Shown here: positions 391 to 20,889 of the stretch, piece by piece | How positions within the stretch are numbered: the stretch's first letter is position 1 | Layout of the letters: every line of letters begins with the position of its first letter | From: Cytophaga sp. FL35 | GTDB taxonomy: Bacteria; Bacteroidota; Bacteroidia; Flavobacteriales; Flavobacteriaceae | Reading direction: 5' to 3' | Assembly: GCF_014349235.1 (NCBI RefSeq) | Contig: NZ_JACSOH010000027.1 | Coordinates: forward strand, 1-58,285 | Length of the DNA stretch: 58,285 nucleotides | The notes under the pieces: generated by a model | Databases searched by the model: none | Told to the model about the DNA's origin: nothing | Seen by the model: the letters and a program-made list of their open reading frames with translations, nothing else | Made by a program: the position numbers and the translations under genes

Positions 391-1653
391 CTACCAGTTA
401 AACTCAATACCACTTCGGTATAATTTGATTACCTCGCAACCGGCCAATAAGGTTGCTCCCAACCCGTGGATATCATTCAAAGGTGTAGGCCTATTAGCAT
501 AATAAAAAGTAGCCGTGCTAATACCGGTACCCATACAAATTCCTTCCACCTGCCCATCGGCCAAAATTTTAGAGGATACTCCCTCCCATCCCTGTGCCGC
601 TATATAGGCGTATCGGGAGTCCAACCATCCTTCATTAATGGCTTTTGCAACAGCGTACGTGAAAATAGCCGTTGCCGAAGTTTCCAGATAACTGTTCTCC
701 CGATCAAGTAATTGATGCCACAGTCCCGAACCATCCTGATAGCGACTAAGACCCACAATTTGCCGGATTAAAAGCTCTATTAATTCTTGGCGGCGCGGAT
801 AGTTGGCCGGTAGTTGGTCCAGCAATTCAATCTGTGCCATAATAATCCAACCGTTACAACGGCCCCAATGAGCTACACCATTTTGCTTAATATCATCATA
901 CCAGGCATGATAAAAAAGGTTTGTTTTAGGATTCCAGAGATGCTTGTTGAACAAGACTACCTGCTCGGCTGCTTCATCAAAATACTTTTGCTCTCCTGTA
1001 AGTGCTCCCATTCGCGCCAGAAAAGGAACACTCATATAGAGGTCGTCTCCCCAAACCGTCATATCGGACGGAAACGTGCGTGCATAAGTCCCATCATCCA
1101 ACCGCTTTTCCTTGGTCAAAATGTAGGTAGCCGCACTGTCCAAATATTTACGATAACGCTCTTGGGGCGCTATTTCATGAACCGCCAATACGGATGCGGC
1201 CATAGCGCCCACATCATCTAGCAATGACATTCGGAATTTTTGTTCCATCCCGGTTTTTTGGTTTTGGGAACCGTACAGTTTTTGAAAGAATGTGTCATGG
1301 TCAAAGACAAAATTCACATTTTGTTTAGCGTAATCTATATATTGATCATCCTTTAGCTCCTCACCCATAGCCATAAAACCTATATTCAATACCCCATTCC
1401 AGTACTTCCATTCATTATAGGGGCTTTCTACCACGTAACCCGCTTTTAGAGGCAGTTTTTTTGAGTCTTTGAAAGTTTTGCCCGTTTCCTTGTCAACGAT
1501 TGTAAAGCTGGTGTTCTGAACAATGTTCCCAGCAACGTTCCGCAATACCCGCTCAATATCCTGAACAGGGTCTGGGTGGCTTTTTTGTCCCTGCGTCGTA
1601 AAACTGATCAAACAAATTACCATAATAAAAAAGAGGTTGGTCGCGTTCTTCAT
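391..1653 (-). CDS. GH88/GH105 family unsaturated rhamnogalacturonyl/glucuronyl hydrolase
   Basis: A secreted 420-residue protein with an N-terminal signal peptide (about residues 1-22). The rest fits the (alpha/alpha)6-barrel glycoside hydrolase family 88/105 (YteR/YesR type), which removes 4,5-unsaturated uronic acid from the non-reducing end of oligosaccharides released by polysaccharide lyases. The motif WGDDLYM at 201-207 matches the family's W-x-D-[TD]-x-[FY]-M, where the first Asp is the expected general acid/base. LLDDVGA at 144-150 and HWGRCNGW at 262-269 are other family-like patches. It is the last gene of the long minus-strand PUL operon, 62 bp after the dehydrogenase small subunit. 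No lyase is visible in the window, so the unsaturated substrate must come from a lyase encoded elsewhere. The family is secure. GH105 rather than GH88 is inferred from length and motif. Confidence 0.85.
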   Translation of the reverse strand: MKNATNLFFIMVICLISFTTQGQKSHPDPVQDIERVLRNVAGNIVQNTSFTIVDKETGKTFKDSKKLPLKAGYVVESPYNEWKYWNGVLNIGFMAMGEELKDDQYIDYAKQNVNFVFDHDTFFQKLYGSQNQKTGMEQKFRMSLLDDVGAMAASVLAVHEIAPQERYRKYLDSAATYILTKEKRLDDGTYARTFPSDMTVWGDDLYMSVPFLARMGALTGEQKYFDEAAEQVVLFNKHLWNPKTNLFYHAWYDDIKQNGVAHWGRCNGWIIMAQIELLDQLPANYPRRQELIELLIRQIVGLSRYQDGSGLWHQLLDRENSYLETSATAIFTYAVAKAINEGWLDSRYAYIAAQGWEGVSSKILADGQVEGICMGTGISTATFYYANRPTPLNDIHGLGATLLAGCEVIKLYRSGIEFNW

Positions 1654-1715: not shown

Positions 1716-2291
1716 TTACCCTAGCGGCTTCTGCCCCGGTTTTAAGGGAATACAGCCCGTAAATCCTCCCGGAACGGGATTATAGATCCTGGCCTTGGTG
1801 GAACCTATTTCCGAACTGAAATACCCAGACAACGTCAAACTTCTGTAAAGGCTATAAAAATGGTCATCGGTGGGCAATCCTGCCGCCTTTTGTTGCCCAT
1901 AAGCAAAAGCTTCATTGTGATAGTTTTTGAGCAGAAATTCCTTTTTTTCTTTTTCAAGAGATCCAAAATCCGACTTAAATAGTTCAAAGGCATCCGCATC
2001 TATGCGGTTGAGTCCGTTGAGCATCAATTCTTTGTCGTCTTCCTTTAGCATATCGGAATACATCATGAACATGTATTCCCCAGTCTTTGCCGCCTTGGCT
2101 CCCGGCACCTCGTCTTTTCCTGGTAAAATGGCATCGGCAATGTCATTTAGAAGGGGAACATCCTTTTCGGTCACTGTTTCCCTTGGTACTGGCGGTACGG
2201 GTTCACATCCGCTGACCAAAAAGGCGGGGGCAGTGGTGACCGTACCCACGGCCAAGGAACCTGACAATCTTAAAAAATCCTTTCTTTTCAT
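1716..2291 (-). CDS. gluconate 2-dehydrogenase subunit 3 family protein (GMC small subunit)
   Basis: A 191-residue protein that partners the GMC dehydrogenase encoded 3 bp upstream. This family (the gamma subunit of membrane-bound sugar dehydrogenases) escorts or stabilises the flavin subunit during export. The N-terminus KRKDFLRLSGS followed by a hydrophobic stretch resembles a Tat-type signal with a degenerate twin-Arg. It ends in a lipobox-like LVSGC, so a lipid-anchored periplasmic protein is plausible. The middle has the acidic helical repeat typical of the family (PLLNDIADAILPG, about residues 46-58), and the C-terminus is rich in Pro/Gly. The ATG at 2291 is chosen over an adjacent GTG at 2294. 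A decayed copy of its 3' end lies at 202-275. Confidence 0.8.
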   Translation of the reverse strand: MKRKDFLRLSGSLAVGTVTTAPAFLVSGCEPVPPVPRETVTEKDVPLLNDIADAILPGKDEVPGAKAAKTGEYMFMMYSDMLKEDDKELMLNGLNRIDADAFELFKSDFGSLEKEKKEFLLKNYHNEAFAYGQQKAAGLPTDDHFYSLYRSLTLSGYFSSEIGSTKARIYNPVPGGFTGCIPLKPGQKPLG

Positions 2292-2294
2292 CAC

Positions 2295-3992
2295 TTACAG
2301 GTTTTGTTTGTTCAACTCTTTTACCGCAAAATCGACGGCCCTTGCAGTCAAGGCCATATAGGTCAGGGAAGGGTTTTGGCAGGCACTGGAAGTCATACAG
2401 GCACCGTCCGTTACAAAGAGGTTGGGCGTGCCCCACACCTGGTTGTTACCATTAAGGACCGAGGTCTTTGGGTCCCGGCCCATACGAGCAGTTCCCATTT
2501 CATGAATGTTGAGCCCAAAATTACGTCTCTCACCCATATCCCTAACATTCTTGAACCCGAGCGTATCCAACATTTCCATGGCGGCGTTCACCATGTCCTT
2601 TTGCATGTTAAGCTCGTTTTCCCGGTACTGGGCATCGATTTGTAATAACGGCATGCCCCAGGCATCTTTTTGATCCTTGCTCAAGGTCACTTTGTTCTCT
2701 TTGTAGGGCAAGCACTCCCCCATTCCCAACATGTTCCATTTCCAAGGACCTACCTGCAACAGGTTGTCCATAAGGGCATCGCCCATTAAAAAGCGTTGCT
2801 CCGGCGTACCGGCAGTTCTAAAACCGCCACAGGAATAGGCGAATCCCCTCAAATAATCTTTTTGCTTGTCTCCCTTATAATTTCGGAAGCGTGGCAAATA
2901 AGTACTGGTAGGCCTCTTGCCTTCGTAGTACTTGTCCTCAAAACCTACCCAATCGCCTTGAACTCGAGCATTATAATTGTGGTCCATCAAATTTTCGCCC
3001 AATACACCGCTGTCGTTGCCCAGACCTTCTGGATATCTTTCTGAAATGGAGTTCATCAAGACCAAAGTGGAGTTAAGGGTGGCTGCGTTCAGGAAAACGA
3101 TTTTGGCGTAGTACTCCCTAATTTCCTTCGTAATGGCATCCACTACCCGAACCCCAGTGGCTTTGCTGGTTACCGGGTCTATGAGAATGGAATGTACAAC
3201 GGCATGGGTTTTCAGCTCTAAATTTCCGGTTTCCCTCGCTGCAGGCAAAGTTGCCGAATTGGAACTAAAATAACCTCCTAGCGGACAACCGCGTTTACAC
3301 AGATTACGATGTTGGCAAGGGCCCCTACCCTTTTTACCTTCGGTAAGGTTGGCGGTGCGGGAAATGACCAGGTCACGATCAGGAAATTTCTTTTTCAATT
3401 CCCCTTTAAAATGGGTCTCCAAGCAGTTCATATCCATGGGGGGCAGGAATTCCCCATCGGGTATTTGCTCCAAACCGTCTCGGTTACCACTTATCCCCGC
3501 AAACTTCTCCACATAACTGTACCATGGTTCCAAATCTTTATAGCGAATGGGCCAATCCACCGCTATGCCTTCCTTGGCATTGGCCTCAAAATCCAGATCA
3601 CTCCATCGCTGGGTATGGCGCGCCCACATAAGCGATTTTCCGCCTACCTGATAGCCCTTGATCCAATCAAAAGGTTTCTCCTGAACATAGGGATGGACCG
3701 CATCTTTTACGAACAAATCTTCGGTAGCCTCCCTAAAAGCGTAACATCTACTGATAATAGGATTCTCCTTTCGCATCTCAAGCGGAATTTTGTTCCTATG
3801 AGGAAAGTCCCAGATAGGCGTATTGGCCGTTTTATAATCAATTACGTGCTCTAGGTTCCTCCCTCGCTCTAGTACCAAGGTCTTGAGCCCTTTTTCGCAA
3901 AGTTCCTTGGCCGCCCATCCTCCGCTAATTCCAGAGCCAATAACAATGGCGTCATAGGTATTGGCTTTTTTATCCGCTCCGTTAATATTCAT
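2295..3992 (-). CDS. GMC family FAD-dependent sugar/alcohol dehydrogenase
   Basis: A 565-residue glucose-methanol-choline oxidoreductase. The dinucleotide-binding motif GSGISGG is at residues 19-25, with the acidic ribose ligand E42 in LERG. The C-terminal half ends with HEMGTARMG and CQNPSLT, which carry the catalytic His/Asn region of the family. Cysteines C226, C232 and C236 form a cluster (C-x5-C-x3-C) like the iron-sulfur-binding insertion described for bacterial FAD-glucose dehydrogenase catalytic subunits. A [3Fe-4S] centre is therefore possible but inferred. It has no signal peptide of its own and is probably exported with the small subunit encoded directly downstream. The substrate is unknown. 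Its position in a PUL suggests oxidation of a sugar or sugar acid released from the polysaccharide. No dedicated cytochrome subunit follows. Confidence 0.87.
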   Translation of the reverse strand: MNINGADKKANTYDAIVIGSGISGGWAAKELCEKGLKTLVLERGRNLEHVIDYKTANTPIWDFPHRNKIPLEMRKENPIISRCYAFREATEDLFVKDAVHPYVQEKPFDWIKGYQVGGKSLMWARHTQRWSDLDFEANAKEGIAVDWPIRYKDLEPWYSYVEKFAGISGNRDGLEQIPDGEFLPPMDMNCLETHFKGELKKKFPDRDLVISRTANLTEGKKGRGPCQHRNLCKRGCPLGGYFSSNSATLPAARETGNLELKTHAVVHSILIDPVTSKATGVRVVDAITKEIREYYAKIVFLNAATLNSTLVLMNSISERYPEGLGNDSGVLGENLMDHNYNARVQGDWVGFEDKYYEGKRPTSTYLPRFRNYKGDKQKDYLRGFAYSCGGFRTAGTPEQRFLMGDALMDNLLQVGPWKWNMLGMGECLPYKENKVTLSKDQKDAWGMPLLQIDAQYRENELNMQKDMVNAAMEMLDTLGFKNVRDMGERRNFGLNIHEMGTARMGRDPKTSVLNGNNQVWGTPNLFVTDGACMTSSACQNPSLTYMALTARAVDFAVKELNKQNL

Positions 3993-4003: not shown

Positions 4004-4846
4004 TTACTCCAAAATGGAATTCAACATTTTTCCTAATCGCTTGCCCACTTCAATCTGGCCTGGTGTATTGTAATGTAAATTGTCTTCCCGTTTGCTAATA
4101 CCCTCCAGACTCACTATGTTTACGTTTGGCAAGGCCGATGTCATTTTTGATTGTGCCTCCATCACCGCTAGAGCTGCAGGATATCTTTCCGCTGGTGGGT
4201 TTACTTGTCCAATGATGACAGGAACTTCAGGATTTCCCCCGTCTTTACGGAAGCGATGCAGCAAATTTTTAAACCCTTCAAAATATTCCGCTCCCGCTTG
4301 CGGAAAACGCGCATCGGTCTCCCCTTGAATCCACAAAAAGGCGTCCGGTTGTAATTTTCGTCCATCCAACTCCTTAGGTAAGTATTTTAACAGGCTATCA
4401 TAGAGACTTCCAAATTTTGGATGTCCCATTTCCGCAACCTTAGCCGAATCTTGTTCCGGTAACCAATCGTAAAGGGAAGAACCTCCTACAGCATATTTAT
4501 AGACCACAAATTCCTGATTGGGGAACTTTTTTTCAAGTTGAAGCATGATGCCCTGTTCAGGACCAAAAGAATGTGACCCAGGTCTTTTCAACCCTGAGCT
4601 AAAACCTTGATTTACGTAAGTGATATTCGGATAGGATTCCGGCAAATCGGTATTCGTTCTATTACCACCCCCAACCATATTGCTTTGGCCGGCCAAAACA
4701 ATCAATTTGGGACTTTTAACAGCACTTATTTCTTTCGAATGACCTATCTCCTTTTTTGTATTATTTTCTTTACAGGCCGATGTTCCCAAAAGGCATACAC
4801 CCATTCCAACCACAAGAATTTTCAAAACACTTTCTTTCCTCCTCAT
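4004..4846 (-). CDS. sialate O-acetylesterase (SASA/CE6-like) family carbohydrate esterase, lipoprotein
   Basis: A 280-residue SGNH-fold esterase of the SASA domain type, expected to remove acetyl groups from sugars. The nucleophile motif GQSNM is at 53-57 (Ser55). A later WIQGE patch supplies the block-III-like region, and DNLH near the C-terminus supplies the catalytic Asp/His pair. LLGTSAC (19-25) is a lipobox, so the mature protein is probably lipid-anchored in the periplasm or outer membrane. The ATG at 4846 is preferred over an in-frame TTG at 4849. It lies 7 bp after the permuted SGNH gene and 11 bp before the GMC gene, within one operon. The acyl group and sugar specificity cannot be read from sequence. 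Confidence 0.82.
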   Translation of the reverse strand: MRRKESVLKILVVGMGVCLLGTSACKENNTKKEIGHSKEISAVKSPKLIVLAGQSNMVGGGNRTNTDLPESYPNITYVNQGFSSGLKRPGSHSFGPEQGIMLQLEKKFPNQEFVVYKYAVGGSSLYDWLPEQDSAKVAEMGHPKFGSLYDSLLKYLPKELDGRKLQPDAFLWIQGETDARFPQAGAEYFEGFKNLLHRFRKDGGNPEVPVIIGQVNPPAERYPAALAVMEAQSKMTSALPNVNIVSLEGISKREDNLHYNTPGQIEVGKRLGKMLNSILE

Positions 4847-4853
4847 CAATTGC

Positions 4854-5570
4854 TTATTCTTTTTCTGATAAAATTTGTCTTAAGTAGGCCGGATAGGTTT
4901 CGCCCTCTACTGTGCCTTCTCCTTTAACGTCCAATCCAAAAGTGATGGAATCACCAAAACAGACCACCTTTCCGTTCAGTTGCAATTGCTGGTCATCCAA
5001 AGATTTAGCAATAATTTTGGCGATGAACTTGTACCCCTCCGGTGTGGGATGCACCCCATCCCGTTTATTGGAATTTTTTTCGTTCATGATCAATCCATCC
5101 TCATTATGGTCCGGGATATTCGCATTTAGAAATGCTTGAAAAACATCTACCAAGTAAACGCCTTCCTGTTTGCTCGATTTTTGCATACAAGTCCTAACGA
5201 ACTCCAGTTTTTCCCTCGGTGCCTGTTGAAAGTTTTTGGAATTATGGCGCTCAAAAAGGTATATAGAATCCACCGTAGGCGGGGTAACCAAAACTACCGA
5301 AGCTCCATTTATCCTTACTTTTTGAATCAACGAATTCAGGTTTTGTCGATACGCTTCGTAAGAGACAAATTTGTTGGAATTGAGCATATCATTGGTACCC
5401 ACCATCAATAACACCCAATCTGGCTTTTCCTCCAGTACTTGGGGAAGGCGAACCAATAAATCCCTAGTATTGTTTCCGGAAATTCCGGCATTTAATATTT
5501 CCATTTGTTGCGCGTTTATTTGAAAGCATAAAATAAGTGGGGCAAATAGCCCTAAAAGCAATTTCCACAT
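4854..5570 (-). CDS. circularly permuted SGNH/GDSL hydrolase, secreted
   Basis: A 238-residue secreted esterase whose SGNH blocks are in permuted order. After a signal peptide (cleavage near INA-QQ, residues 18-22) the mature chain starts directly with block II (NAGISGNNT, 27-35). Block III (GTND, 58-61) and block V (DGVHPTPEGY, 171-180) follow. Block I, with the nucleophile FGDSITFG (205-212, Ser208), comes last. In ordinary family members block I is N-terminal. Here the C-terminal YPAYLRQIL (226-234) is the helix that normally leads into the strand where this mature protein begins, so the old termini have been joined and new ones opened. All catalytic residues (Ser208, Gly, Asn60, Asp171/His174) are present, so it should be active. 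It starts at an ATG 10 bp after the CstA-like gene. The likely role is deacylation of PUL glycans. Confidence 0.82.
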   Translation of the reverse strand: MWKLLLGLFAPLILCFQINAQQMEILNAGISGNNTRDLLVRLPQVLEEKPDWVLLMVGTNDMLNSNKFVSYEAYRQNLNSLIQKVRINGASVVLVTPPTVDSIYLFERHNSKNFQQAPREKLEFVRTCMQKSSKQEGVYLVDVFQAFLNANIPDHNEDGLIMNEKNSNKRDGVHPTPEGYKFIAKIIAKSLDDQQLQLNGKVVCFGDSITFGLDVKGEGTVEGETYPAYLRQILSEKE

Positions 5571-5580
5571 CGATTAAGGA

Positions 5581-7014
5581 TTAAGCCATTTGCAATCTTC
5601 CCTTGGTAACGTACCATCCAAAAAGCCCAATTACCAATATAGTTATAACGGCCCCACCCCAATAGGCATAGGTATTTTCAATAGAAAAACCTTCGGGGGC
5701 AATCAAAATATAGGTACTGCAAACCATGGTCATAAAAATGGCCGGCACCAAGGACACCACATAATTTTTCTTCTCAAAAATGAGATAGGCTGTAATGGTC
5801 CAGAGTACTACGGTGGCCAGGGTTTGGTTGCTCCATGCAAAATACCGCCAGATAATTCCAAAATCCACCTGCGTAAGGGCAAAAGCGATGACGAACAATG
5901 GCAAGCTTATGTAAAACCTTTTGATATACTTTTTTTGGTCGAGTTGAAAGACATCGGCCAAAATTAGCCTGCACGACCTAAAAGCCGTGTCCCCCGAGGT
6001 TATGGGAGCTGCTATAATTCCTAAAACGGCCAAAATCCCACCTACTTGCCCCAGCATGGATAAGGTAATTTCGTTTGCGGCCCAAGCGGCATTATTGTTA
6101 TTGGCAGCCATGGTGGAATTGAGGGCGCCCACATCCCCAAAACAGACCATAGCGGCAGCCGCCCAAATGAGGGCTACAATACCTTCCGTAATCATAGTAC
6201 CCGAAAAAATGATCCTCCCGTTGCTTTCATTTCTCATACAACGGGCCATTAGAGGCGATTGTGTGGCATGAAAACCTGAAATGGCCCCACAGGCAATGGT
6301 CACGAAAAGCACTGGAAAAATGGGTGTTTCCGTGGGATTGGAGGTCATGTTCCTTAGATTTCCCCAAGTGACTTCTGGTATGGTAAAATCGCCGGTCATT
6401 AGAACAACGAACAATCCCAAAGCCATAATCAGCATGGCCAAACCGAAAACCGGGTACAATTTGCCTATCAGTTTATCTATGGGCAGCAACGTAGACAAAA
6501 AGTAATAGACCAATATTAGTAGCACCCAAAAAGGCACTCCCATGCTCTCACTGGTCAAACCATCTATAATTTTTGCCGGTCCTACCAGGAAAACCGTCCC
6601 CACAAAAATGAGCAGGATGATGGTAAAAGCGCGCATGAGGTGTTTTACCTTGGGTCCTAAATAGATTCCCACGACTTCACTAATGCTTAAACCCTTATGC
6701 CTTACGGACAACATCCCCGAAAAATAATCGTGCGTGGCCCCTGCGAAAATACTACCGAGCACGATCCATAAAAATGCGGACGGCCCGAACATAGCGCCTG
6801 CAATGGCACCAAAAATGGGACCCAGCCCGGCAATATTCAAAAATTGGATCATAAATACCTTCCAGGTGGGTAAAGGGGTATAGTCTACATCATCCCTAAG
6901 TTCATAGGCCGGTGTTTTCTTGTTTTTATCAATACCCAAGACTTTCTCCAAGAATACCCCATACACCAAGTATCCTATGATCAGTACAACTATGGAAAGT
7001 AAGAATGAGACCAT
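5581..7014 (-). CDS. CstA family carbon starvation protein (transporter)
   Basis: A 477-residue polytopic inner-membrane protein of the carbon starvation CstA family. It belongs to the short form (the E. coli protein is about 700 residues). Family patches are visible: FLNIAGLGPIFGAIAGA (about 59-75), ATHDYFSGM, and SGFHATQSPLMARC (about 246-259). CstA proteins have been linked to uptake of peptides and, in E. coli, pyruvate. Its place in the middle of a PUL operon (8 bp after the FAD oxidoreductase, 10 bp before the permuted esterase) is unusual. It suggests import of a small product of the glycan, but that is inference. The name cstA is not assigned because the substrate is unknown. Confidence 0.85.
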   Translation of the reverse strand: MVSFLLSIVVLIIGYLVYGVFLEKVLGIDKNKKTPAYELRDDVDYTPLPTWKVFMIQFLNIAGLGPIFGAIAGAMFGPSAFLWIVLGSIFAGATHDYFSGMLSVRHKGLSISEVVGIYLGPKVKHLMRAFTIILLIFVGTVFLVGPAKIIDGLTSESMGVPFWVLLILVYYFLSTLLPIDKLIGKLYPVFGLAMLIMALGLFVVLMTGDFTIPEVTWGNLRNMTSNPTETPIFPVLFVTIACGAISGFHATQSPLMARCMRNESNGRIIFSGTMITEGIVALIWAAAAMVCFGDVGALNSTMAANNNNAAWAANEITLSMLGQVGGILAVLGIIAAPITSGDTAFRSCRLILADVFQLDQKKYIKRFYISLPLFVIAFALTQVDFGIIWRYFAWSNQTLATVVLWTITAYLIFEKKNYVVSLVPAIFMTMVCSTYILIAPEGFSIENTYAYWGGAVITILVIGLFGWYVTKGRLQMA

Positions 7015-7022
7015 CTAACTTT

Positions 7023-8720
7023 TTATTTATCTTTTTTCGGGGCTTCTAACCGTTGCTCTTTTTGCAACAACTCCTTTTGCAAATCTGCATAGGCCACCTC
7101 CTGAACAGCTTTACCTTGATCAATGGACAATCCGGCCAAGGCCGCCGCACTTTGACCTAAAATCATAAATACCGGCTCCATACGAATAGATCCAAATGCA
7201 ATATGGGAACTGGAAACCGCCACGGGTACTATCAAGTTACTTACTTCCTCTTTTTTAGGAAGAATAGTGCCCAGGGCAATTTTATACGGCTCCTTGGCAT
7301 GTACTCCTATATCCCCTTCATTTTGCACAAAACCTTCCGGAGTAATGTATCGCTGCGTATTATGAGAATCCATGGTATAAGACCCCATTCCTATGGAATT
7401 GGGAACTTCACGTTTTCCTAAAATATCGTTCTCCGTCATTACATAATCCCCGATCATTCTGCGTGCTTCCCGTACATAAATTTGGTGCGGCCAATGACCA
7501 TTGTCCTCAAATTCATCTTTGGCCAAGCCCCATTGTTTAAATTCATTTTGTACCTCTTCAGGAATTCTTTCATCAGTAGCCACAAAATACAAAAGGCCTT
7601 TTTGATAATTCTCGTGCTCCTTGATAATCTCGGCACGCCTTTCATAACTCGCCTCCGGATAATCATAGTTCATACCTATAAAATCCGTACTGAATGGTCC
7701 ATGGTTGTTGGTATCCGTTTTCAGATTGGGAATGGGATCGAATTTTTTAAAGGTCTGGTCCCAACCGGCTTCATATACCCTTGCCAACAATTCATAATTC
7801 TCAGGATTGTACCCGTCCGGTTTTTCAAAGGGCACCCTATTTTCTTCCACCTTGGTCAAGCACATCCTAAAATTATAGGCCTGTACCCTTTTGTCTGCCT
7901 CCCAACGTTTTCCTGGGTCTTCAGTAGATACTCCATTAACTATCCCACTGCTACTATCGCCGGGAATTTTATATGGACTGATATTCATATCGCCAAAATG
8001 ATGCTGATGATGTAAAATACCTACTTGCACACCGTTCCACTCCTCGTTATAGGTTTCTCTGGCCTCTCTGCCCACGGTGTAGGTAACCCCTGCGGCCGCC
8101 ATTAAATCTCCCTCATACGTGGCATCGATAAAAACCTTTCCCCCAAACTTTTTTCCGGATAAGGTCTCTATCCGTGTTATTTTACCATCGTTAAGGGTAA
8201 CGCCATTGGACCGGTCCAAAAATTCCTCCCGGTAAACGGTAATATCGTTTTCAGTAATAAAATCTTCAAAAACCTGCTCCGCTACGTGCGGTTCAAAAAT
8301 CCACATAGTTCTATTGGTACCATCAATGGCCGGCGTGCCTTGACCAACATTTCCGTATTCTTCCTTTTTTTGCCACTGCCAAGTTTCATCCTTTTGGTAA
8401 TACTGATATATTTTTTGATAAAACTCACGTGCCAAACCTCCGATTACTTCTTTATTTCCGGTATCCGTATATCCTAAACCGGAAGAGGACAAACCGCCCA
8501 AATGCTTATCCGGTGAAACCACCAATACGGATTTGCCCATTTGCTTTGCTTGAACCGCTGTGGTTACCGCTGCCGAAGTTCCCCCATAAACAATGACATC
8601 TGCCGTAAATAGATTTTCCTCTACCACGGTCTTTTCTTCCTTGCAAGCTACTAAAAGCACTGTTAAAGCCGTTAGGGCCAGGAGACGCGAGATTTTTTTA
8701 TAATATCTTATACTTTTCAT
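7023..8720 (-). CDS. FAD-dependent oxidoreductase (FAD_oxidored family), lipoprotein
   Basis: A 565-residue flavoprotein of the FAD_oxidored type, often mislabelled 'xanthan lyase' in databases. A lipobox (LLVAC, Cys26) predicts a lipid-anchored periplasmic protein. The FAD-binding segment starts just after it: VIVYGGTSAAVTTA with the usual Gly-rich turn, then GLSSSGLG and a second FAD patch FIDATYEGDLMAAAG. The C-terminal part VPVAVSSSHIAFGSIRMEPVF-like closes the flavin site. The substrate is unknown. Members are frequent in PULs and planctomycete sugar-degradation clusters, which fits oxidation of a glycan-derived sugar. It lies 26 bp after the sulfatase gene and is co-oriented with the operon. 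Confidence 0.82.
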   Translation of the reverse strand: MKSIRYYKKISRLLALTALTVLLVACKEEKTVVEENLFTADVIVYGGTSAAVTTAVQAKQMGKSVLVVSPDKHLGGLSSSGLGYTDTGNKEVIGGLAREFYQKIYQYYQKDETWQWQKKEEYGNVGQGTPAIDGTNRTMWIFEPHVAEQVFEDFITENDITVYREEFLDRSNGVTLNDGKITRIETLSGKKFGGKVFIDATYEGDLMAAAGVTYTVGREARETYNEEWNGVQVGILHHQHHFGDMNISPYKIPGDSSSGIVNGVSTEDPGKRWEADKRVQAYNFRMCLTKVEENRVPFEKPDGYNPENYELLARVYEAGWDQTFKKFDPIPNLKTDTNNHGPFSTDFIGMNYDYPEASYERRAEIIKEHENYQKGLLYFVATDERIPEEVQNEFKQWGLAKDEFEDNGHWPHQIYVREARRMIGDYVMTENDILGKREVPNSIGMGSYTMDSHNTQRYITPEGFVQNEGDIGVHAKEPYKIALGTILPKKEEVSNLIVPVAVSSSHIAFGSIRMEPVFMILGQSAAALAGLSIDQGKAVQEVAYADLQKELLQKEQRLEAPKKDK

Positions 8721-8746: not shown

Positions 8747-10279
8747 TTAAAGGTATTGTTGCAATTCATCGTGCATTTCCGCCACTTTTTTCGGATGTTT
8801 TTCGGCCAGATTGTTCAATTCGCTGGGATCGTCCTGTAAGTTATACAACTCATAGAAATAATTAACTATACCATCCGTATTACCATCCTTTAAAACAATT
8901 AGTTTCCAGTTACCCTTTCTGTAACCAAAGACGTTATTACCAGATTGGATTACCAATGATTTCCTTCCCTCACCTGAACCTTCCAAAGCAGAAAAATGGT
9001 TTTCGCCATCCATTTTCATATCCACGGGAAAATTATAATTCAACATGGAAGCTAGACTGGGCAGTACATCGTTCAAGGCAAAAATAGCCTCACTTTTACC
9101 TCCTTCAGGAAAACGACCCGGCCATCTGGCAATAAAAGGAGTGCGGACACCACCTTCCCATCCGGTGCGTTTCCACCCTCGGAGTCCACCGTTGGGTATA
9201 TGTTTAAAATCAGGAGCTTGCAAATCTGGATAGCTATCGCCAACAGTATCCTTATAATGACCAGGAACCCTATTGTTATCATCAGAAGCTGTCATCCCCT
9301 TGTAAGTTTCCCTAAAAACGGAACCATTATCACTTGCAAAAAGAACCATAGTATTGTCTTTTAAGCCTCTGTTTTCCAATTCTTTTAGCAATTTACCAAT
9401 ATTAAAATCCAATTCATTCACATAATCCCCGTAAGTACCGGCTTCCGTAGTTCCTAAAAAAGGCTCACTAACGGCCAATGGAACATGTGGCACATAGGGC
9501 GCGTAATACAAAAAGAATGGTTCTTGGTTTTTGTTAGATTCCTTTGAAATAAATTCCAAGGAACGATCGGTTATTTCATTTAAAAAGCCATCCATGGGAA
9601 TAGGCTGTAATTTGTCTGAACCCGGGGCCTTCTCAACCGTGTAATAATCGTGCTCCAAATAGGCTTTTACCTTATCATTTTCAAAAATCCAGCATTCACT
9701 GGCGCAACTAAAACCGTACCATTGGTCAAAACCGTGATCGGTAGGACCATCGGAAACAGGCTTGGAAAAATCTAGGTTAGCCCCATTATTAGCTGCATAA
9801 AATTTCCCGTAACCCATTGGTTTTTCCCCATCCAAGGTCGGAAAAGTGGTACCTAAATGCCATTTTCCAAATCCGCCCGTACGGTATCCCGATTGCTGAA
9901 ACATTTCTGCTAAAGTAACCATATCGGCCTCCATCATAGAAGGCTCATAGTTTCTCATTACTCCATGTTTATTCCAACTTCTCCACGGATAAACACCCGT
10001 CATTAAGGCATATCTTGATGGTGAACAAACAGAAATAGGGCAATATGCATTGGTGAGCATCATTCCCTCTTTGGCCAATTGGTCAAGATTAGGGGTAGGT
10101 ATTTTTGAATTAGTATTGTAGGCACCAATATCCCCATAGCCTAAATCGTCTGCCAAGATAAAAATAACATTAGGCTTTGCCGGAGCTTTTTCTTTAGCTT
10201 CCTTACAAGAAAAGCTTGCTAAAATGGCAAAAAAAGCAAATGGTAAGAATTTGGTTTTTGGTAGTTGGTAGATTTTCAT
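8747..10279 (-). CDS. type I (S1) sulfatase, lipoprotein
   Basis: A 510-residue arylsulfatase-family enzyme that should cleave sulfate esters from a polysaccharide. The signature C-S-P-S-R is at 85-89, with Cys85 the residue converted to formylglycine. The metal-binding DDLGYGD is at 44-50, GKWHLG supplies the Lys/His pair, and FASDNG supplies the second Asp-Asn metal patch. A lipobox (ASFSC, Cys25) predicts a lipid-anchored protein. No catalytically competent maturase is encoded in the window; the two FGE-fold proteins here lack the active cysteines. A hairpin lies in the 111-bp gap behind susD. This enzyme indicates that the target glycan is sulfated. The subfamily cannot be read by eye. 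Confidence 0.93.
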   Translation of the reverse strand: MKIYQLPKTKFLPFAFFAILASFSCKEAKEKAPAKPNVIFILADDLGYGDIGAYNTNSKIPTPNLDQLAKEGMMLTNAYCPISVCSPSRYALMTGVYPWRSWNKHGVMRNYEPSMMEADMVTLAEMFQQSGYRTGGFGKWHLGTTFPTLDGEKPMGYGKFYAANNGANLDFSKPVSDGPTDHGFDQWYGFSCASECWIFENDKVKAYLEHDYYTVEKAPGSDKLQPIPMDGFLNEITDRSLEFISKESNKNQEPFFLYYAPYVPHVPLAVSEPFLGTTEAGTYGDYVNELDFNIGKLLKELENRGLKDNTMVLFASDNGSVFRETYKGMTASDDNNRVPGHYKDTVGDSYPDLQAPDFKHIPNGGLRGWKRTGWEGGVRTPFIARWPGRFPEGGKSEAIFALNDVLPSLASMLNYNFPVDMKMDGENHFSALEGSGEGRKSLVIQSGNNVFGYRKGNWKLIVLKDGNTDGIVNYFYELYNLQDDPSELNNLAEKHPKKVAEMHDELQQYL

Positions 10280-10390: not shown

Positions 10391-11872
10391 TCAATACCCT
10401 GGGTTCTGATCGCCAGGACCCATGGCCGGATTATTATTTATTTCATCAATTGGCAAGGGCAGTAAAAGTGATACATCACTCCACGTTTTACCAGTGGCCT
10501 CTACAAATTCTTGTGCCCTACCTGTTCTAAGAAGATCGTTCCAGCGTTTCATCTCCAGGTTCATTTCATACACCCTTTCATCCAGTACGGCATTTTTAAA
10601 GTCCGTAGCGGACATTCCTGAAGGATAATCCTCCACAGAAGCAGCATTCAAAGGAAAACCATAGCCCCTTCTACGAACAATATTCAATCTCTCCGTTGCC
10701 AAAGAAGTTGGCGCCCCACTGGCTTCGGCGGTAGCCTCCGCATAGATTAGGTACATTTCGGGGAGTCTGTAAAACGGAATATTGTTTCTACTCTGTGGCC
10801 CACTAGCCGCTCCCGGATCACGATATTTATGAAATAACAAGGGGGAATCCTCGGGTAATTGCTGTACCTCCCCGTTATCGTCTATATATTCCGTATAGAG
10901 GCTAAATTGTCTACGTAAATCATTAGTATCCCATGAACCTAATATAGAATTCTGAACAGGCAACCAAGCGTGAAAACCACCAATAGAGAAGCCCGTATTG
11001 GCCCTATGAATAAATCTTGGGACGTCCATACCATTGGTCTCCGAATAGTGCGCCGAAAAGATATCTTCGGAATGGGTAACCACTTCAGGACCATAAATAT
11101 TCATAAAATCATCGGCTACAGCCACCTCCACTAAGGTATAAGGCCCGTTTACAATGATATCATCTGCCGTATCCGCAGCCAATTGCCAGTTTTCTGTATT
11201 CAAATAGGCATCTGCCAAGGCAGCCTTGGCCGTCCATGAGGTAGCCCTACCGGAATCTGAATCTGAAAAACTATCGGCCAAATCAGGAATCACCGCATTT
11301 AGCTCACTGATGATAAATTCCCAAACCTCGTCTACGGAAGCTCTTGGAGCCGGAATCTGGTCCAAACTGGTAAATTCTTCAGTTCTTAAAGGAACACCGC
11401 CCCAATACTTGACCAAGTTCATATAGAAAAAAGCCCTTAAAAAACGCGCTTCGGCCACGTATTGCTTTCGAAGGTCTTCTTTCATATCCTCAATTTTTGC
11501 CACATTGGATATGACCGAATTTGCCCTATTTACACCAAGGTAAATATCATTATAAGCTGCAAACACACGCTCTTGGCTGGTATTGTCCAGAGGCCCATCG
11601 TAATTACTGAAACCTGCTTGGCTACCTCGTCCGTTTGAATATTCCGCTCTATTTTCCAAGGTGGCCATAAAATAGGTAACCGGGAAATAACGGTCTCCTC
11701 CAGAACGAAAGGTTCCGTAAACTGCTGCCAGGGCCGAAAAGGCATCCGTTTCGTTCTTGTAAAAATTCTCTTTTACCAAAAGGCTTTCGGGCTCTTCCAT
11801 CAAGGCCTCTTCACACGAAGTGAACAGCAGCCCCAAAACCAAACCGCTTATGATGTATATATATTTTTTCAT
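10391..11872 (-). CDS. SusD/RagB family glycan-binding outer-membrane lipoprotein
   Basis: A 493-residue SusD-family lipoprotein that forms the lid over its SusC partner and binds the glycan at the cell surface. A lipobox is visible at LLFTSC (Cys20), followed by an acidic stretch (EEALMEEPESL) as in surface-exported Bacteroidota lipoproteins. ARFLRAFFYMNLVKYWGGVPL (the TPR helix pair with the conserved W-GG-P) and the C-terminal RRRGYGFP and ERVYEMNLEMKRWNDLLRTGR-type region are family hallmarks. It is encoded 23 bp after susC. The specific ligand is unknown. Confidence 0.95.
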   Translation of the reverse strand: MKKYIYIISGLVLGLLFTSCEEALMEEPESLLVKENFYKNETDAFSALAAVYGTFRSGGDRYFPVTYFMATLENRAEYSNGRGSQAGFSNYDGPLDNTSQERVFAAYNDIYLGVNRANSVISNVAKIEDMKEDLRKQYVAEARFLRAFFYMNLVKYWGGVPLRTEEFTSLDQIPAPRASVDEVWEFIISELNAVIPDLADSFSDSDSGRATSWTAKAALADAYLNTENWQLAADTADDIIVNGPYTLVEVAVADDFMNIYGPEVVTHSEDIFSAHYSETNGMDVPRFIHRANTGFSIGGFHAWLPVQNSILGSWDTNDLRRQFSLYTEYIDDNGEVQQLPEDSPLLFHKYRDPGAASGPQSRNNIPFYRLPEMYLIYAEATAEASGAPTSLATERLNIVRRRGYGFPLNAASVEDYPSGMSATDFKNAVLDERVYEMNLEMKRWNDLLRTGRAQEFVEATGKTWSDVSLLLPLPIDEINNNPAMGPGDQNPGY

Positions 11873-11895: not shown

Positions 11896-14800
11896 TTAAA
11901 GCTTCAGATTCATACCTACCGTAATGGTACGTGAACTTGGGTAAGAGGTCTGTGCAATACCCAGTCTTAGGTCACCGGCACCGCCCCTTGTATTTACATC
12001 TGGATCCAAACCTGGAAAATCCGTAACGGTAAATACGTTTTGGGCGCTCAGGTACACTTGCAACCCTGCAATATCCGGTTGAATATTTTTTACCGGGATG
12101 TTGTAGGCCAGTTTAATGTTCTTCAACCTTAAATAAGAGGCGTCTTTAACAAAGCGATCGGAAACTCTTAACTGTGCCCTATTTTCACTTGGAGCAGGAT
12201 AGGCGGCATCCGTATTCTGGGGTGTCCAATAATCATTATAGACATCTACAATTTGGTTACCCCCTGTACTGAAAGAGTTGGCTATATATCCTCCTGTAGC
12301 CCAGAACAGTTCATTACCTTCAGAACCTTCAAAGAATAGGTTTAGACTCAACGCCTTGTAATTAAGCGTTGTGTTCAAAGCATAAATAAAATCTGGATAT
12401 GGCCCTCCTAGAATGGTCTGATCTTCATTGGTTACCTCACCATCCCCATTCAAGTCCTTGTACTGAATAACCCCTTGGTCATCATATCCATCTTCTTGAA
12501 AGCCGTAGAACATACCCAACGGTTCACCTTCTCTAGCTATGTTCACCGGAGAGTTGAATGGAATATCCAAAGAACCTCCAAAAATATCCTCTCCAATGGT
12601 AATCACCTCATTCTTGTTAAAGGACAACTGTGCATTGACATCCCAAGTAAAATCACTCTTGCCAAAGGTGGCTCCAGCACTAAATTCCATACCTGTATTC
12701 TCAATTTCACCCAAGTTGGTTACCAAAGATGTAAAACCTGTTGAACCTGGCAACGGAATTATAGCCAATAAATCGTTGGTGTTTTTCTTGTAGTAATCAA
12801 TTGTGAAACGGTATTTACCTTCCAAGAAAGAGGCATCAATACCAGCCCCCATTTGTGCGGTAGTTTCCCATTTTAAATCGGGGTTTGGAGCGGAAACATT
12901 GGCAAAACCTACTACATCTGAATTACCAAAAGTAGTTCTGGCCTCACCCAACGTATTCAATGATTGGTAAGGATTAATAGCGGTACTACCGGTTTCACCG
13001 TAACCTACCCTTAGTTTTAGATCCGAAAGGGATTCCCAATTTGAAAGGAATTCCTCATTGCTCAACCTCCATGCGAAAGACCCTGAGGAGAATACCCCCC
13101 ATTTGTTGTTATCGCCAAATCGAGAGGAACCATCTGCTCGTACACTAGCAGTAAACAAATATTTGTTATTAAGGCTGTAATTGACCCTCCCTAACCATGA
13201 ATACAGTTTCCAATCGCTTACGTCACTAGAGTTTGGCAAGGTACTTTCTGCGGTACCCAAAGCGTTATCCTGTAGAATATCCGTAGTAAAGCCTGTTGCA
13301 CTGGATTCATTAGTTTTACCTCTAAACGTTTGAGCGGTAAAACCTGCCACAGCAGACAACCTATCATCTTCACCAATAGTGGCATCATAGGAAAGGGTAT
13401 TTTCATTTAGATAGGAAATGCCCCTGAACATATTGAAAGTGGCCGATCCTTGAGGCGTTCTTTTTTTCAAGATGGACGGAGAGTAAAAATTACGCTCCCT
13501 AAATTCCTGTTCCGTACCACCCAAAACCTTCAATTTTAAACGGTCTGCCAGTTCAAATTCCACAGCAATATTCCCCAAAACCTTGGAGGTAAAGACTTCA
13601 TCCTTAACTTCGGCATACAACAATGGGTTATCAATGGAAACCGGGCTAAAATCATAGAAATCAATCTCGCTATAATTTCCATCGGCATCAAAAGGAGCTA
13701 CTGTTGGTGGTGCCTGTAAGGTAGCCGACCAAATATTGTTTCCGGAATTACCATTGTTTACATTCGCCCTATTGGTCTTGCTACGTGTCAATACCGTATT
13801 GGCACTCAATCTGATCCAATCATTTACTTGATTATCCATGGACAATCTTACGGATCCCCTTTTTTGTCCCGTATTCAAGATAATACCCTCTTGCTCAAAA
13901 TAGTTGGCAGAAGCGGAATAGGAAGAACTTTCACTACCACCGGAAAATGTCAATGTATGGCTTTGGATCGGCGCCGCCCTAAAGGCCTCGTCTTGCCAGT
14001 TTGTATAGACATTGGGAAGATTGTTCAAGTCAAAAGGTTCTGTATTTCCCTCATTAACGGCCGCTACGTTCGCTAATTCCGCAAACTGTCGAGAATTGAG
14101 CATGTCATAGGTTTTCATCACATTTTGAATACCATAGTAACTCTGTACATCTACCACACCCCTTTGACCTTTTTTACCTTTTTTGGTAGTAATCATGACG
14201 ACCCCATTGGCGCCCCTAGAACCATATATGGCAGTAGCTGAGGCATCTTTAAGAATATCTATGGACTCAATATCGGAAGGATTTAAAAAATCAATGCCGC
14301 CCGTAATAGGAAAACCATCTACTACATAAAGAGGATTGTTATCACCTAAATAAGAATTTCCACCACGTATCTGAATTTGAACCGAAGAACCAGGTTGACC
14401 CGAATTCTGGGTAACCCTAACACCGGCAGACCTACCTTTTAAGGCCTGTTGCACATCTGTGGTAGGCAAGGCTGTAATTTCCTCGGCGTCAACCGTGGAA
14501 ACAGAGCCGGTAAGATCGCTCCTATTAACGGAACCATAACCTACAACTACCACTTCTTCCAAACCTTGGGCACTTTCTTTTAAAGTTACATTTAGTTCAG
14601 TGCTATCGCCTACCAATACCTCTTTGGTTTCAAAACCTAGGTAACTGAACACGAGTACCGTTTCCCTTCCGGCAACCGAAATAGAATAATTTCCATCAAA
14701 ATCGGAAATCTGTCCGTTTCCGGTTCCCTTTTCTACAATGTTTACACCGGCCAACGGCGTACCTGCTTCATCTGTCACAGTTCCGGAAACCTCCAATTGT

Positions 14801-15195
14801 TGCGGAGGTGCAACCTTGGTTTCCATAGCAGCCCTTTCACCGGCCTTTTTTGGCAACAACAAGATTTTGTCTCTGTAAATTTCATAATCAATAAGGCTTT
14901 GCTTAAAAACCATATTCAAGACCCTATTGATTTCTCCGTTGCGAATGCGCAAGCTTAATACCCTATTGGTATTGACAGTTTCTGAGTTAAAGATGAATTT
15001 AAAGTCTGTATTCGCTTCAATTTCATCTATGACCCTTGAGAGAGTGACGTTCTCCAAATCAAGGGTTATCTTTTTCTGGGAATAAGTTGAGTTGGCTTGC
15101 ATCGCAATGGTCACCGTAAGGAGTAATAGCGATAATTTCATCTGTAATTTGAATAGACAGGACGTTCTTCCTGCGGAATTCAACCGTTTTTTCAT
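11896..15195 (-). CDS. SusC/RagA family TonB-dependent receptor with STN signalling domain
   Basis: A 1099-residue outer-membrane transporter for oligosaccharides. Domains in order are a signal peptide (to about residue 40), an STN/secretin-like signalling domain (about 44-115), a carboxypeptidase-regulatory-like domain (about 134-205), a TonB-dependent plug (about 215-330, with EEVVVVGYG and NPLYVVDGFPI), and the beta-barrel, which ends in an aromatic/basic strand (TITVGMNLKL). The STN domain is the feature that contacts a FecR-type anti-sigma factor. The fecR gene lies directly upstream and an ECF sigma factor gene diverges from that, so glycan sensing by this receptor probably controls the locus. 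The start is the ATG at 15195. Confidence 0.96.
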   Translation of the reverse strand: MKKRLNSAGRTSCLFKLQMKLSLLLLTVTIAMQANSTYSQKKITLDLENVTLSRVIDEIEANTDFKFIFNSETVNTNRVLSLRIRNGEINRVLNMVFKQSLIDYEIYRDKILLLPKKAGERAAMETKVAPPQQLEVSGTVTDEAGTPLAGVNIVEKGTGNGQISDFDGNYSISVAGRETVLVFSYLGFETKEVLVGDSTELNVTLKESAQGLEEVVVVGYGSVNRSDLTGSVSTVDAEEITALPTTDVQQALKGRSAGVRVTQNSGQPGSSVQIQIRGGNSYLGDNNPLYVVDGFPITGGIDFLNPSDIESIDILKDASATAIYGSRGANGVVMITTKKGKKGQRGVVDVQSYYGIQNVMKTYDMLNSRQFAELANVAAVNEGNTEPFDLNNLPNVYTNWQDEAFRAAPIQSHTLTFSGGSESSSYSASANYFEQEGIILNTGQKRGSVRLSMDNQVNDWIRLSANTVLTRSKTNRANVNNGNSGNNIWSATLQAPPTVAPFDADGNYSEIDFYDFSPVSIDNPLLYAEVKDEVFTSKVLGNIAVEFELADRLKLKVLGGTEQEFRERNFYSPSILKKRTPQGSATFNMFRGISYLNENTLSYDATIGEDDRLSAVAGFTAQTFRGKTNESSATGFTTDILQDNALGTAESTLPNSSDVSDWKLYSWLGRVNYSLNNKYLFTASVRADGSSRFGDNNKWGVFSSGSFAWRLSNEEFLSNWESLSDLKLRVGYGETGSTAINPYQSLNTLGEARTTFGNSDVVGFANVSAPNPDLKWETTAQMGAGIDASFLEGKYRFTIDYYKKNTNDLLAIIPLPGSTGFTSLVTNLGEIENTGMEFSAGATFGKSDFTWDVNAQLSFNKNEVITIGEDIFGGSLDIPFNSPVNIAREGEPLGMFYGFQEDGYDDQGVIQYKDLNGDGEVTNEDQTILGGPYPDFIYALNTTLNYKALSLNLFFEGSEGNELFWATGGYIANSFSTGGNQIVDVYNDYWTPQNTDAAYPAPSENRAQLRVSDRFVKDASYLRLKNIKLAYNIPVKNIQPDIAGLQVYLSAQNVFTVTDFPGLDPDVNTRGGAGDLRLGIAQTSYPSSRTITVGMNLKL

Positions 15196-17986: not shown

Positions 17987-19426
17987 TTACTTTTCTTTGG
18001 AAGACAAGGTATCTTTTGAAACAAAAAAGTCTTTTATCTCATTATCCATACCATTGTCAATTTTTACACTTGGTTTTTGGTTTGTCAATTCTTCCAAGCC
18101 TTTGCTTGAAATTTTGGTTCCCCAAATGTAAAGCCTTTTTAGATTTTGAAAGGCGAGTAAAGTAGAAATGCTTTTATCAGTTACGGACGTCTCGTATAAT
18201 TTTAAGAGACTCAGGTTGTTTAGTGATTTCAATTGACCTAAATCTTGGTCTGTGATTGGGGTCTTATCCAATTCAAGCCATTCTAAATTTTGGCATTTTG
18301 CTAATAGATTTACCTCTTCAGCTCCAATAGGAATACCACTCAAATCAAATTCCACAATATTTCCGGCAATTCTTTCCAAGTTACGTATGGGTTTGGAGTC
18401 ATATTCAGGCGGTAAATAGACATCAATACTCAAAGCATTGGAATTACCTGCCATTCGCGTAATTGTCAAATAATCACTGGCCAAGTTTTGCAGCGTACTA
18501 TCCGCAACTATAGGCAATTCTTTCCATCTATCTTCGGCACTTGGCTCCATTAATTTTTTTACCAAGGCCTGTAAAGGTTCCGTCGGTGGAAGTGAAGCAT
18601 ATTTCAAGGTATCGGAAGCACCCAAAGCAATCCAACTTTCCAAAATGGCAATCTCATCAGAATCCAATTGGGTCTTCCCCTCCGGCGGCATGTGCTCCTC
18701 TTCTTCAAGCGGGAGGTGCAACCGTTTTATTAACTCACTTTCTTCTGGATTTCCAATGACAAGCGTATTACCATGCTCCCCTCCTTTAAATAAACCTTCA
18801 AGGTTATGCATTAACAATGCTCCTTTTTGCTTGTTAGGATTATGGCAGGAAACACATTTATCTTCTAAAATAGGAGCCACCACATGCGCGTATATCAAAG
18901 GGTTTTCTGGTAATTCCTTTGATTTCTTACCTGTAGGAAGCGCTAAATAATCTTCGCCGTGTGTCACCATACCGCCGTAGTGGCCCGTTAAACTTACCAA
19001 CACCAGCATGAACACCAAGAGCGTTTTTTTTACAATCGCCTTACCCAACAACCTCCTTTCTACCTGATAAAAAATTACCAACAGAAAAGCTAATCCTGCA
19101 CCTAGCCATTGATGCCAAAAAAGTAAATCGCCCTTTTCACCGGCTTCCTTCCCAAGAAAGAAACCCGAAATGGCAGTAACCAAAACAGAAATCACCATGA
19201 TTTCCAGCAGGAGTTTCGGAAAAGTCATTTTCGTAAAACCAAGGAAAACGGTAATGATAATCAAAACTATGGGAAAGTGCAGTATCAATGGATGCCAACG
19301 GCCCAACCAACCTACCAGGCTTGGAAGTTCTATACGGGATTCAAAAATGAGGCAAAAAACCAGAAAAATGGATAGACCCAAAATGACATAATCCACCCAT
19401 GAACTTTTAGAATTTGAGTCTGTCAT
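17987..19426 (-). CDS. membrane-anchored planctomycete-type cytochrome c / leucine-rich repeat fusion protein
   Basis: A 479-residue fusion. The N-terminal ~155 residues are a four-to-five-helix membrane domain resembling DUF2231, with buried-looking histidines (RWHPLILHFP H45/H50, WHQWLG H105, GHYGG H149, THGED H156) that could bind haem b. Next is a planctomycete-type cytochrome c (PSD1) domain with CVSCH at 191-195 and the distal Met in MPPEG at 246-250. The C-terminal third (about 345-465) has four or more LRR-like units (LEWLELDKTPITDQDLGQLKSL pattern). The ATG overlaps the stop of the DUF1501 gene by one base, and the SDR gene follows after 1 bp. Haem c attachment in the periplasm is expected. 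The electron partner is unknown. Confidence 0.8.
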   Translation of the reverse strand: MTDSNSKSSWVDYVILGLSIFLVFCLIFESRIELPSLVGWLGRWHPLILHFPIVLIIITVFLGFTKMTFPKLLLEIMVISVLVTAISGFFLGKEAGEKGDLLFWHQWLGAGLAFLLVIFYQVERRLLGKAIVKKTLLVFMLVLVSLTGHYGGMVTHGEDYLALPTGKKSKELPENPLIYAHVVAPILEDKCVSCHNPNKQKGALLMHNLEGLFKGGEHGNTLVIGNPEESELIKRLHLPLEEEEHMPPEGKTQLDSDEIAILESWIALGASDTLKYASLPPTEPLQALVKKLMEPSAEDRWKELPIVADSTLQNLASDYLTITRMAGNSNALSIDVYLPPEYDSKPIRNLERIAGNIVEFDLSGIPIGAEEVNLLAKCQNLEWLELDKTPITDQDLGQLKSLNNLSLLKLYETSVTDKSISTLLAFQNLKRLYIWGTKISSKGLEELTNQKPSVKIDNGMDNEIKDFFVSKDTLSSKEK

Positions 19427-20886: not shown

Positions 20887-20889
20887 AGC

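Follow-up and report, generated by a model that had tools for sequence, protein, structure and literature searches.

A circularly permuted SGNH hydrolase with a C-terminal nucleophile in a polysaccharide utilization locus of Cytophaga sp. FL35

The gene and its catalytic blocks

We examined a 58,285-nucleotide stretch of the marine bacterium Cytophaga sp. FL35 (contig NZ_JACSOH010000027.1, positions 1 to 58,285), hereafter the window, in which one gene encodes a protein of the SGNH hydrolase superfamily with its catalytic blocks in an unusual order. An original prediction made from the sequence had placed four such blocks in this protein, and their coordinates, frame and motifs proved exact. 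The features of the gene are as follows:

4854..5570, minus strand: circularly permuted SGNH hydrolase gene, 238 amino acids (Pfam, block order and rotation test)
5508..5570, minus strand: putative signal peptide, about residues 1–21 (judged by eye from the sequence)
5469..5492, minus strand: block II NAGISGNN, residues 27–34, with oxyanion Gly29 (motif position and family alignment)
5388..5399, minus strand: block III GTND, residues 58–61, with oxyanion Asn60 (motif position and family alignment)
5049..5060, minus strand: block V DGVH, residues 171–174, with Asp171 and His174 (motif position and family alignment)
4941..4955, minus strand: block I GDSIT, residues 206–210, C-terminal, with nucleophile Ser208 (motif position, family alignment and model strand 201–206)
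4860..4895, minus strand: C-terminal helix, residues 226–237, which canonically follows block I (DSSP of the model)

The blocks occur in the order II-III-V-I (G-N-H-S) instead of the linear S-G-N-H order that is canonical for the superfamily and that rotation of the chain restores. All four blocks are present, with Ser, Gly, Asn and His and the Asp of DxxH, and both PF13472 and PF00657 exceed their Pfam cut-offs; two NCBIfam families match far below theirs (44.9 of 270 bits and 28.7 of 700 bits). The mature protein would begin at the block II strand, after a leader of about 21 residues that resembles a signal peptide, and the protein is apparently exported. Ser208 sits 30 residues ahead of the C-terminal end. 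Both the leader at the new N-terminus and this position of the nucleophile had been anticipated.

Rotation restores the canonical block order

We rotated the window protein by putting its C-terminal 44 residues in front and dropping the first 21. Before rotation, residues 23–181 aligned to positions 34–177 of the 178 positions of PF13472, the front of the profile being absent, while after rotation a single match ran over positions 1–177 and the score rose from 86.5 to 99.0 bits. PF00657 behaved in the same way (76.5 bits over 33–207 of 208, then 89.8 bits over 1–207). In a sequence search of the PDB, rotation bettered the top E-value from 8.2e-12 to 2.1e-13, with that alignment then beginning at chain residue 3. 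When the unrotated protein was searched, none of the best stretches for the 42 distinct PDB sequences retrieved at E up to 1 spanned block II through block I; they either stopped by residue 196 or covered block I alone (4tx1, 4rw0), and therefore no solved relative of this order was seen by sequence.

A family of permuted proteins in Bacteroidota

Block-order classification of 57 related proteins yielded 38 permuted (G-N-H-S) and 19 canonical ones, none having both orders and none neither. Kept outside the 57 were duplicates (L001, L002, L007, L008, L024, L055, L062 and L063), the broken L004 and the loci from the search for FdlA-like proteins. The search for homologues with the same block order thus revealed a Bacteroidota family and no single oddity: all 38 permuted proteins come from this phylum, with 30–84% identity to the window protein. 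In the alignment, Gly29, Asn60, Asp171, His174 and Ser208 are kept in 38/38, bearing out the prediction that no catalytic residue had been lost, and further invariant residues include Asp61, Cys204, Gly206, Asp207, Thr210, Tyr226 and Pro227. DxxH and GDS are spaced 34–36 residues apart throughout, and in 37 of the 38 the nucleophile stands 19–38 residues short of the C-terminus. The exception, L023, sits on a long tree branch and carries a long C-terminal extension of 283 residues past the nucleophile that ends in a Por secretion tail (PF18962).

A profile built from the 19 canonical proteins was then scored on every rotation of each permuted protein. Rotation raised the score in all 38, by a median of 24.8 bits (range 11.3 to 32.6), with the optimal cut always between DxxH and GDS. 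As a control, leave-one-out rotation of the 19 canonical proteins gained at most 0.2 bits. Because the rotation test, the canonical controls and a family with the same order all support it, we conclude that the window protein is a circular permutation of an SGNH hydrolase, as had been proposed, and neither a truncation nor an artefact.

The distribution of the family was followed by searching genomes with a cut-off of E <= 1e-20, tightened to 1e-22 for the class of genome G862 and the taxonomic family of genome G751. Since the samples overlap, several contain the window's genome and the queries were permuted, the counts that follow are not independent frequencies. In the window organism's taxonomic family, 12/397 genomes matched, with 14 matches, all permuted. 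The class sample (9/395 genomes) and the phylum sample (9/395) each gave 4 permuted and 5 canonical matches, G862 of the phylum sample belonging to another class. The copy in G862 may be acquired, because this genome is the sole match among 145 genomes of its class. In the taxonomic family of G751, 20/151 genomes matched, the 21 matches comprising 17 permuted and 4 canonical proteins. Overall, permuted genes were found in six genome families (f1, f36, f41, f57, f63 and f90) belonging to two classes within these samples. A plasmid search at 1e-10 gave no match to the permuted protein. A separate search for related loci found seven, all with the permuted order; one of them, in Gramella sp. AN32 (L004:5974-6732), has an in-frame stop close to block II and was set aside.

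We also looked for close canonical relatives by searching the rotated protein against 100 genomes of the window organism's taxonomic family. Seven matched at 1e-9; setting aside the window's own permuted gene, the matches are canonical proteins of distant relationship (28–34% identity, best E 9.1e-11). No tandem-duplication intermediate (S-G-N-H-S) was present among the 57 classified proteins. In the best tree of blocks II–V the permuted proteins do not form a single clade (3 changes); a single clade is not rejected (approximately unbiased test, p-AU 0.276), and the canonical branches are very long.

Nonsynonymous and synonymous divergence between the window gene and L001 was dN 0.077 and dS 0.417 for the whole gene, and dN 0.061 and dS 0.280 for the C-terminal 37 codons. 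The C-terminal segment is under purifying selection. The leaders of the 38 proteins, judged by eye, vary between ordinary signal peptides, lipoprotein-like cysteine motifs (e.g., L027, L034, L066, L067 and L078) and, in many proteins of the G751 family, twin-arginine starts (L068, L069, L071, L073-L077 and L083).

Predicted structure

An AlphaFold2 (AF2) model of the window protein, built from 7 sequences, reached a mean predicted local distance difference test score (pLDDT) of 79.5 and a predicted template modelling score (pTM) of 0.78. Foldseek and VIA-align matched it to SGNH hydrolases, with the alpha/beta/alpha fold of the superfamily. DSSP assigned strands at 24–27, 52–56, 91–95, 139–141 and 201–206 and a helix at 226–237. 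The canonical SGNH sheet has the strand order 2-1-3-4-5, in which the block II strand pairs solely with the block I strand, and a strand label in DSSP requires a pairing partner. The labels on both 24–27 and 201–206 are thus consistent with a moved strand lying between 24–27 and 52–56 in the model, although they are no proof of it, and they bear only indirectly on the condition that had been named for refutation, a GDS strand not seated in the sheet beside the block II strand. In VIA-align rows 1–11, the target range starts at entry residue 36–68, save for 9hi5_C at 23, and in row 12 (1vjg) it starts at residue 5. These starts fit weakly with the front of the fold being missing, as entry numbering varies and the ranges give the ends alone; a family without a listing in VIA-align is not thereby excluded.

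Of the other explanations, the one that survives best, though improbable, is a domain-swapped dimer, in which the C-terminal strand and helix would be exchanged between subunits and the active site completed in trans. Two points speak for such an exchange: the moved piece is attached through a short linker that follows the last helix (about residues 194–200), and the loop past it is poorly predicted. Against this, the single-chain model labels both 24–27 and 201–206 as strands and the DxxH–GDS spacing is constant across the family, neither of which is decisive.

Neighbouring genes

The permuted gene is one of a series of co-directional genes, the others being:

11896-15195, minus strand: SusC-type TonB-dependent receptor (Pfam)
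10391-11872, minus strand: SusD (Pfam)
8747..10279, minus strand: sulfatase, PF00884 (Pfam)
7023..8720, minus strand: FAD_oxidored protein, PF12831 (Pfam), a recurrent neighbour
5581..7014, minus strand: CstA-family transporter, PF02554, 10 bases upstream of the permuted gene
4004..4849, minus strand: SASA-family esterase, PF03629, 4 bases downstream of the permuted gene
2295-3992, minus strand: GMC oxidoreductase, downstream, same direction
1716-2294, minus strand: gluconate 2-dehydrogenase subunit 3-like protein, downstream, same direction
391-1653, minus strand: glycoside hydrolase family 88 (GH88), downstream, same direction

The gene is probably part of an operon, because its gaps to the CstA and SASA genes are this short. 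A SusC/SusD pair stands beside carbohydrate-active genes and, with the sulfatase and GH88 in the same run, the placement in a polysaccharide utilization locus (PUL) was correct. Beside the PUL, at 17987-23229, lies a cluster of planctomycete-type cytochrome (PSCyt1), DUF1501 and PSD1/PSCyt2 proteins.

Neighbours were compared over 24 loci (the window, L003-L007 and L037-L054; L001 and L002 duplicate L037 and L038). An FAD oxidoreductase at least 60% identical to that of the window occurs in 12/24, either directly beside the permuted gene or separated from it by a single CstA gene, the flanks being unequal in length and some clipped by contig ends. Pfam scans of 30 chosen neighbours left 10 without a match at 1e-5; the matches of the others include GH95 (three), GH3, GH141-type, heparinase II/III-like and alginate-lyase-like proteins.

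Fusions to a fucoidan lyase-like domain

Six loci (L003, L005, L006, L007/L064, L021 and L022) carry the permuted domain behind an FdlA-like beta-helix, in single open frames of about 670 amino acids. The N-terminal domain, of about 450 residues, is homologous to the fucoidan lyase FdlA (E 4.3e-69 for the A2 profile against 7XZF; E 9.6e-66 for L005 alone). FdlA (7XZ7 to 7XZF) resembles the fused relatives in this domain but differs in its C-terminal part: where they have the permuted SGNH domain, FdlA is described as having an F5/8 type C domain together with a secretion tail (PMC9410043). The window protein, unlike the fused relatives, is without the lyase domain. More FdlA-like matches were found in genomes G323, G335, G173, G1171, G370, G236 and G227, the first three of which hold large sets of FdlA-like paralogues alongside permuted esterases.

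FdlA reportedly cleaves sulfated fuco-glucuronomannan lytically, with Lys141 and Tyr242 as proposed catalytic residues (PMC9410043); on other fucoidans, activity without unsaturated products is reported, and fucoidan hydroxyls may carry acetyl groups (PMC6267234).

Comparison with known SGNH proteins

Among the solved structures nearest to the window protein in sequence and fold are canonical SGNH/GDSL proteins, namely the acetylxylan esterases Axe2 (3W7V) and AlAXEase (7DDY) and the GDSL-like 1YZF, 3P94 and 4IYJ. These share with the window protein the block II–V fold, the four blocks and the catalytic residues, but their block I is N-terminal (S-G-N-H). The SGNH carbohydrate deacetylases CE25 (BcCE25) and CE17 (RiCE17), which act on beta-mannans in gut bacteria and whose type of activity the window protein is predicted to share, are unpermuted, with an N-terminal serine (Ser37 with Asp238-His241 and Ser41 with Asp190-His193, respectively; PMC13276840).

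It had been stated that no enzyme so arranged was known. This holds for the cut point: in the literature on permuted SGNH, GDSL and esterase proteins, as far as its accessible text goes and with most subscription journals outside the scope, the G-N-H-S cut was not found, only H-S-G-N proteins. In PMC5408684 and PMC2848206, 'permuted' refers to other matters, and no permuted SGNH protein is named in the relevant passages of PMC12419801 and PMC3779223. The statement fails for permutation as such. AlgJ, AlgX, PatB1 (DHHW) and WssI share circular permutation of the SGNH fold with the window protein, and are presented as having the order H-S-G-N and as O-acetyltransferases (PMC9487903, PMC4148444, PMC5697884, PMC10302187). 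Their cut lies between blocks III and V, that of the window protein between I and II. Permuted SGNH proteins have thus already been described, and only the cut point between I and II looks new.

That the published permuted SGNH proteins are presented as O-acetyltransferases raises the idea of an O-acyltransferase instead of a hydrolase, an idea we rate as slightly less probable still than the domain swap. The permutation point differs, blocks II and III preceding both DxxH and GDS throughout the permuted family. In AlgX and AlgJ the blocks are modified (GTSYS, DxH, Tyr in place of Asn) and the fold bears a cap plus two additional long strands, whereas the blocks of the window protein are hydrolase-like; every member of the permuted family keeps Asn60 together with the Asp and His of DxxH, in contrast to a DxH or DHHW block V without the block III Asn. 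Moreover, the setting is catabolic (sulfatase, GH88, SusCD and the lyase fusion), and no MBOAT family was detected among the Pfam-scanned proteins, many neighbours lying outside that scan. A fusion or assembly artefact, in which the back part of one SGNH gene would be joined to the front part of a second one, has nothing in its favour and practically no chance of being right, since 38 distinct proteins of separate assemblies share the order with invariant C-terminal residues and purifying selection acts over that segment. Chance is rejected as well, on the block order, the rotation gains with their controls and the invariant residues. The frameshift or misassembly that had been considered a danger is excluded, as the architecture recurs in many separate genomes.

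Interpretation

We favour, with a probability of about 0.87, the view that the window protein is an SGNH-superfamily serine esterase, active and exported, with a circularly permuted chain, a rebuilt triad and a carbohydrate O-acyl substrate. The new termini would correspond to the canonical loop between the post-block I helix and the block II strand, and the old termini would be joined through the short linker at about residues 194–200. The fold, the Ser208-His174-Asp171 triad and the Gly29/Asn60 oxyanion hole would thereby be rebuilt in space, and the enzyme would therefore be expected to behave as a conventional SGNH acyl esterase does. Ser208 would attack an O-acyl group, most probably O-acetyl, of a carbohydrate that the SusCD system handles, and once the acyl group is removed the sugar would become accessible to the remaining enzymes of the locus. 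The block order, the invariant residues of the family, the gain on rotation, the gene context and the fusions of relatives are observations, whereas the place of the moved strand in the sheet, export, catalysis, acetyl specificity and substrate are what we infer for the window protein.

Several points weigh against this reading. Some PDB matches hardly changed on rotation (3p94 from 43.3 to 43.5 bits, 4hf7 from 26.0 to 26.2 bits). In the AF2 model, pLDDT is below 50 at 158–165 and at 210–222, the loop past the nucleophile, and the proposed place of the moved strand in the sheet is deduced from strand labels. The AF2 model of a fused relative is too poor for use (pLDDT 43). Esterase activity is predicted from residues for the window protein and is likewise a prediction for every family member. 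Finally, the search of the window's genome for FdlA-like proteins at E <= 1e-10 returned the permuted gene only; therefore, the substrate of the fusion partner need not be that of the window enzyme.

For the family, the best reading is one of exported carbohydrate O-acyl (probably acetyl) esterases whose permuted topology is new and whose activity and substrate are predictions from the sequences. A broader proposal, to which we give somewhat less than even odds, is that of an undescribed Bacteroidota carbohydrate-esterase family, a third SGNH topology, which would deacetylate sulfated algal or related glycans, partly as the esterase half of bifunctional fucoidan lyase-esterases, its N-terminus, brought to the block II edge by the permutation, permitting fusion behind other domains. 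The SGNH fold is as a rule recognised from its block order, and the family profile misses the nucleophile of the window protein. The existence of a G-N-H-S family in nature would mean that the SGNH fold tolerates a second cut point, and its members, lyase-esterase fusions included, are candidate esterases for acetylated algal polysaccharides.
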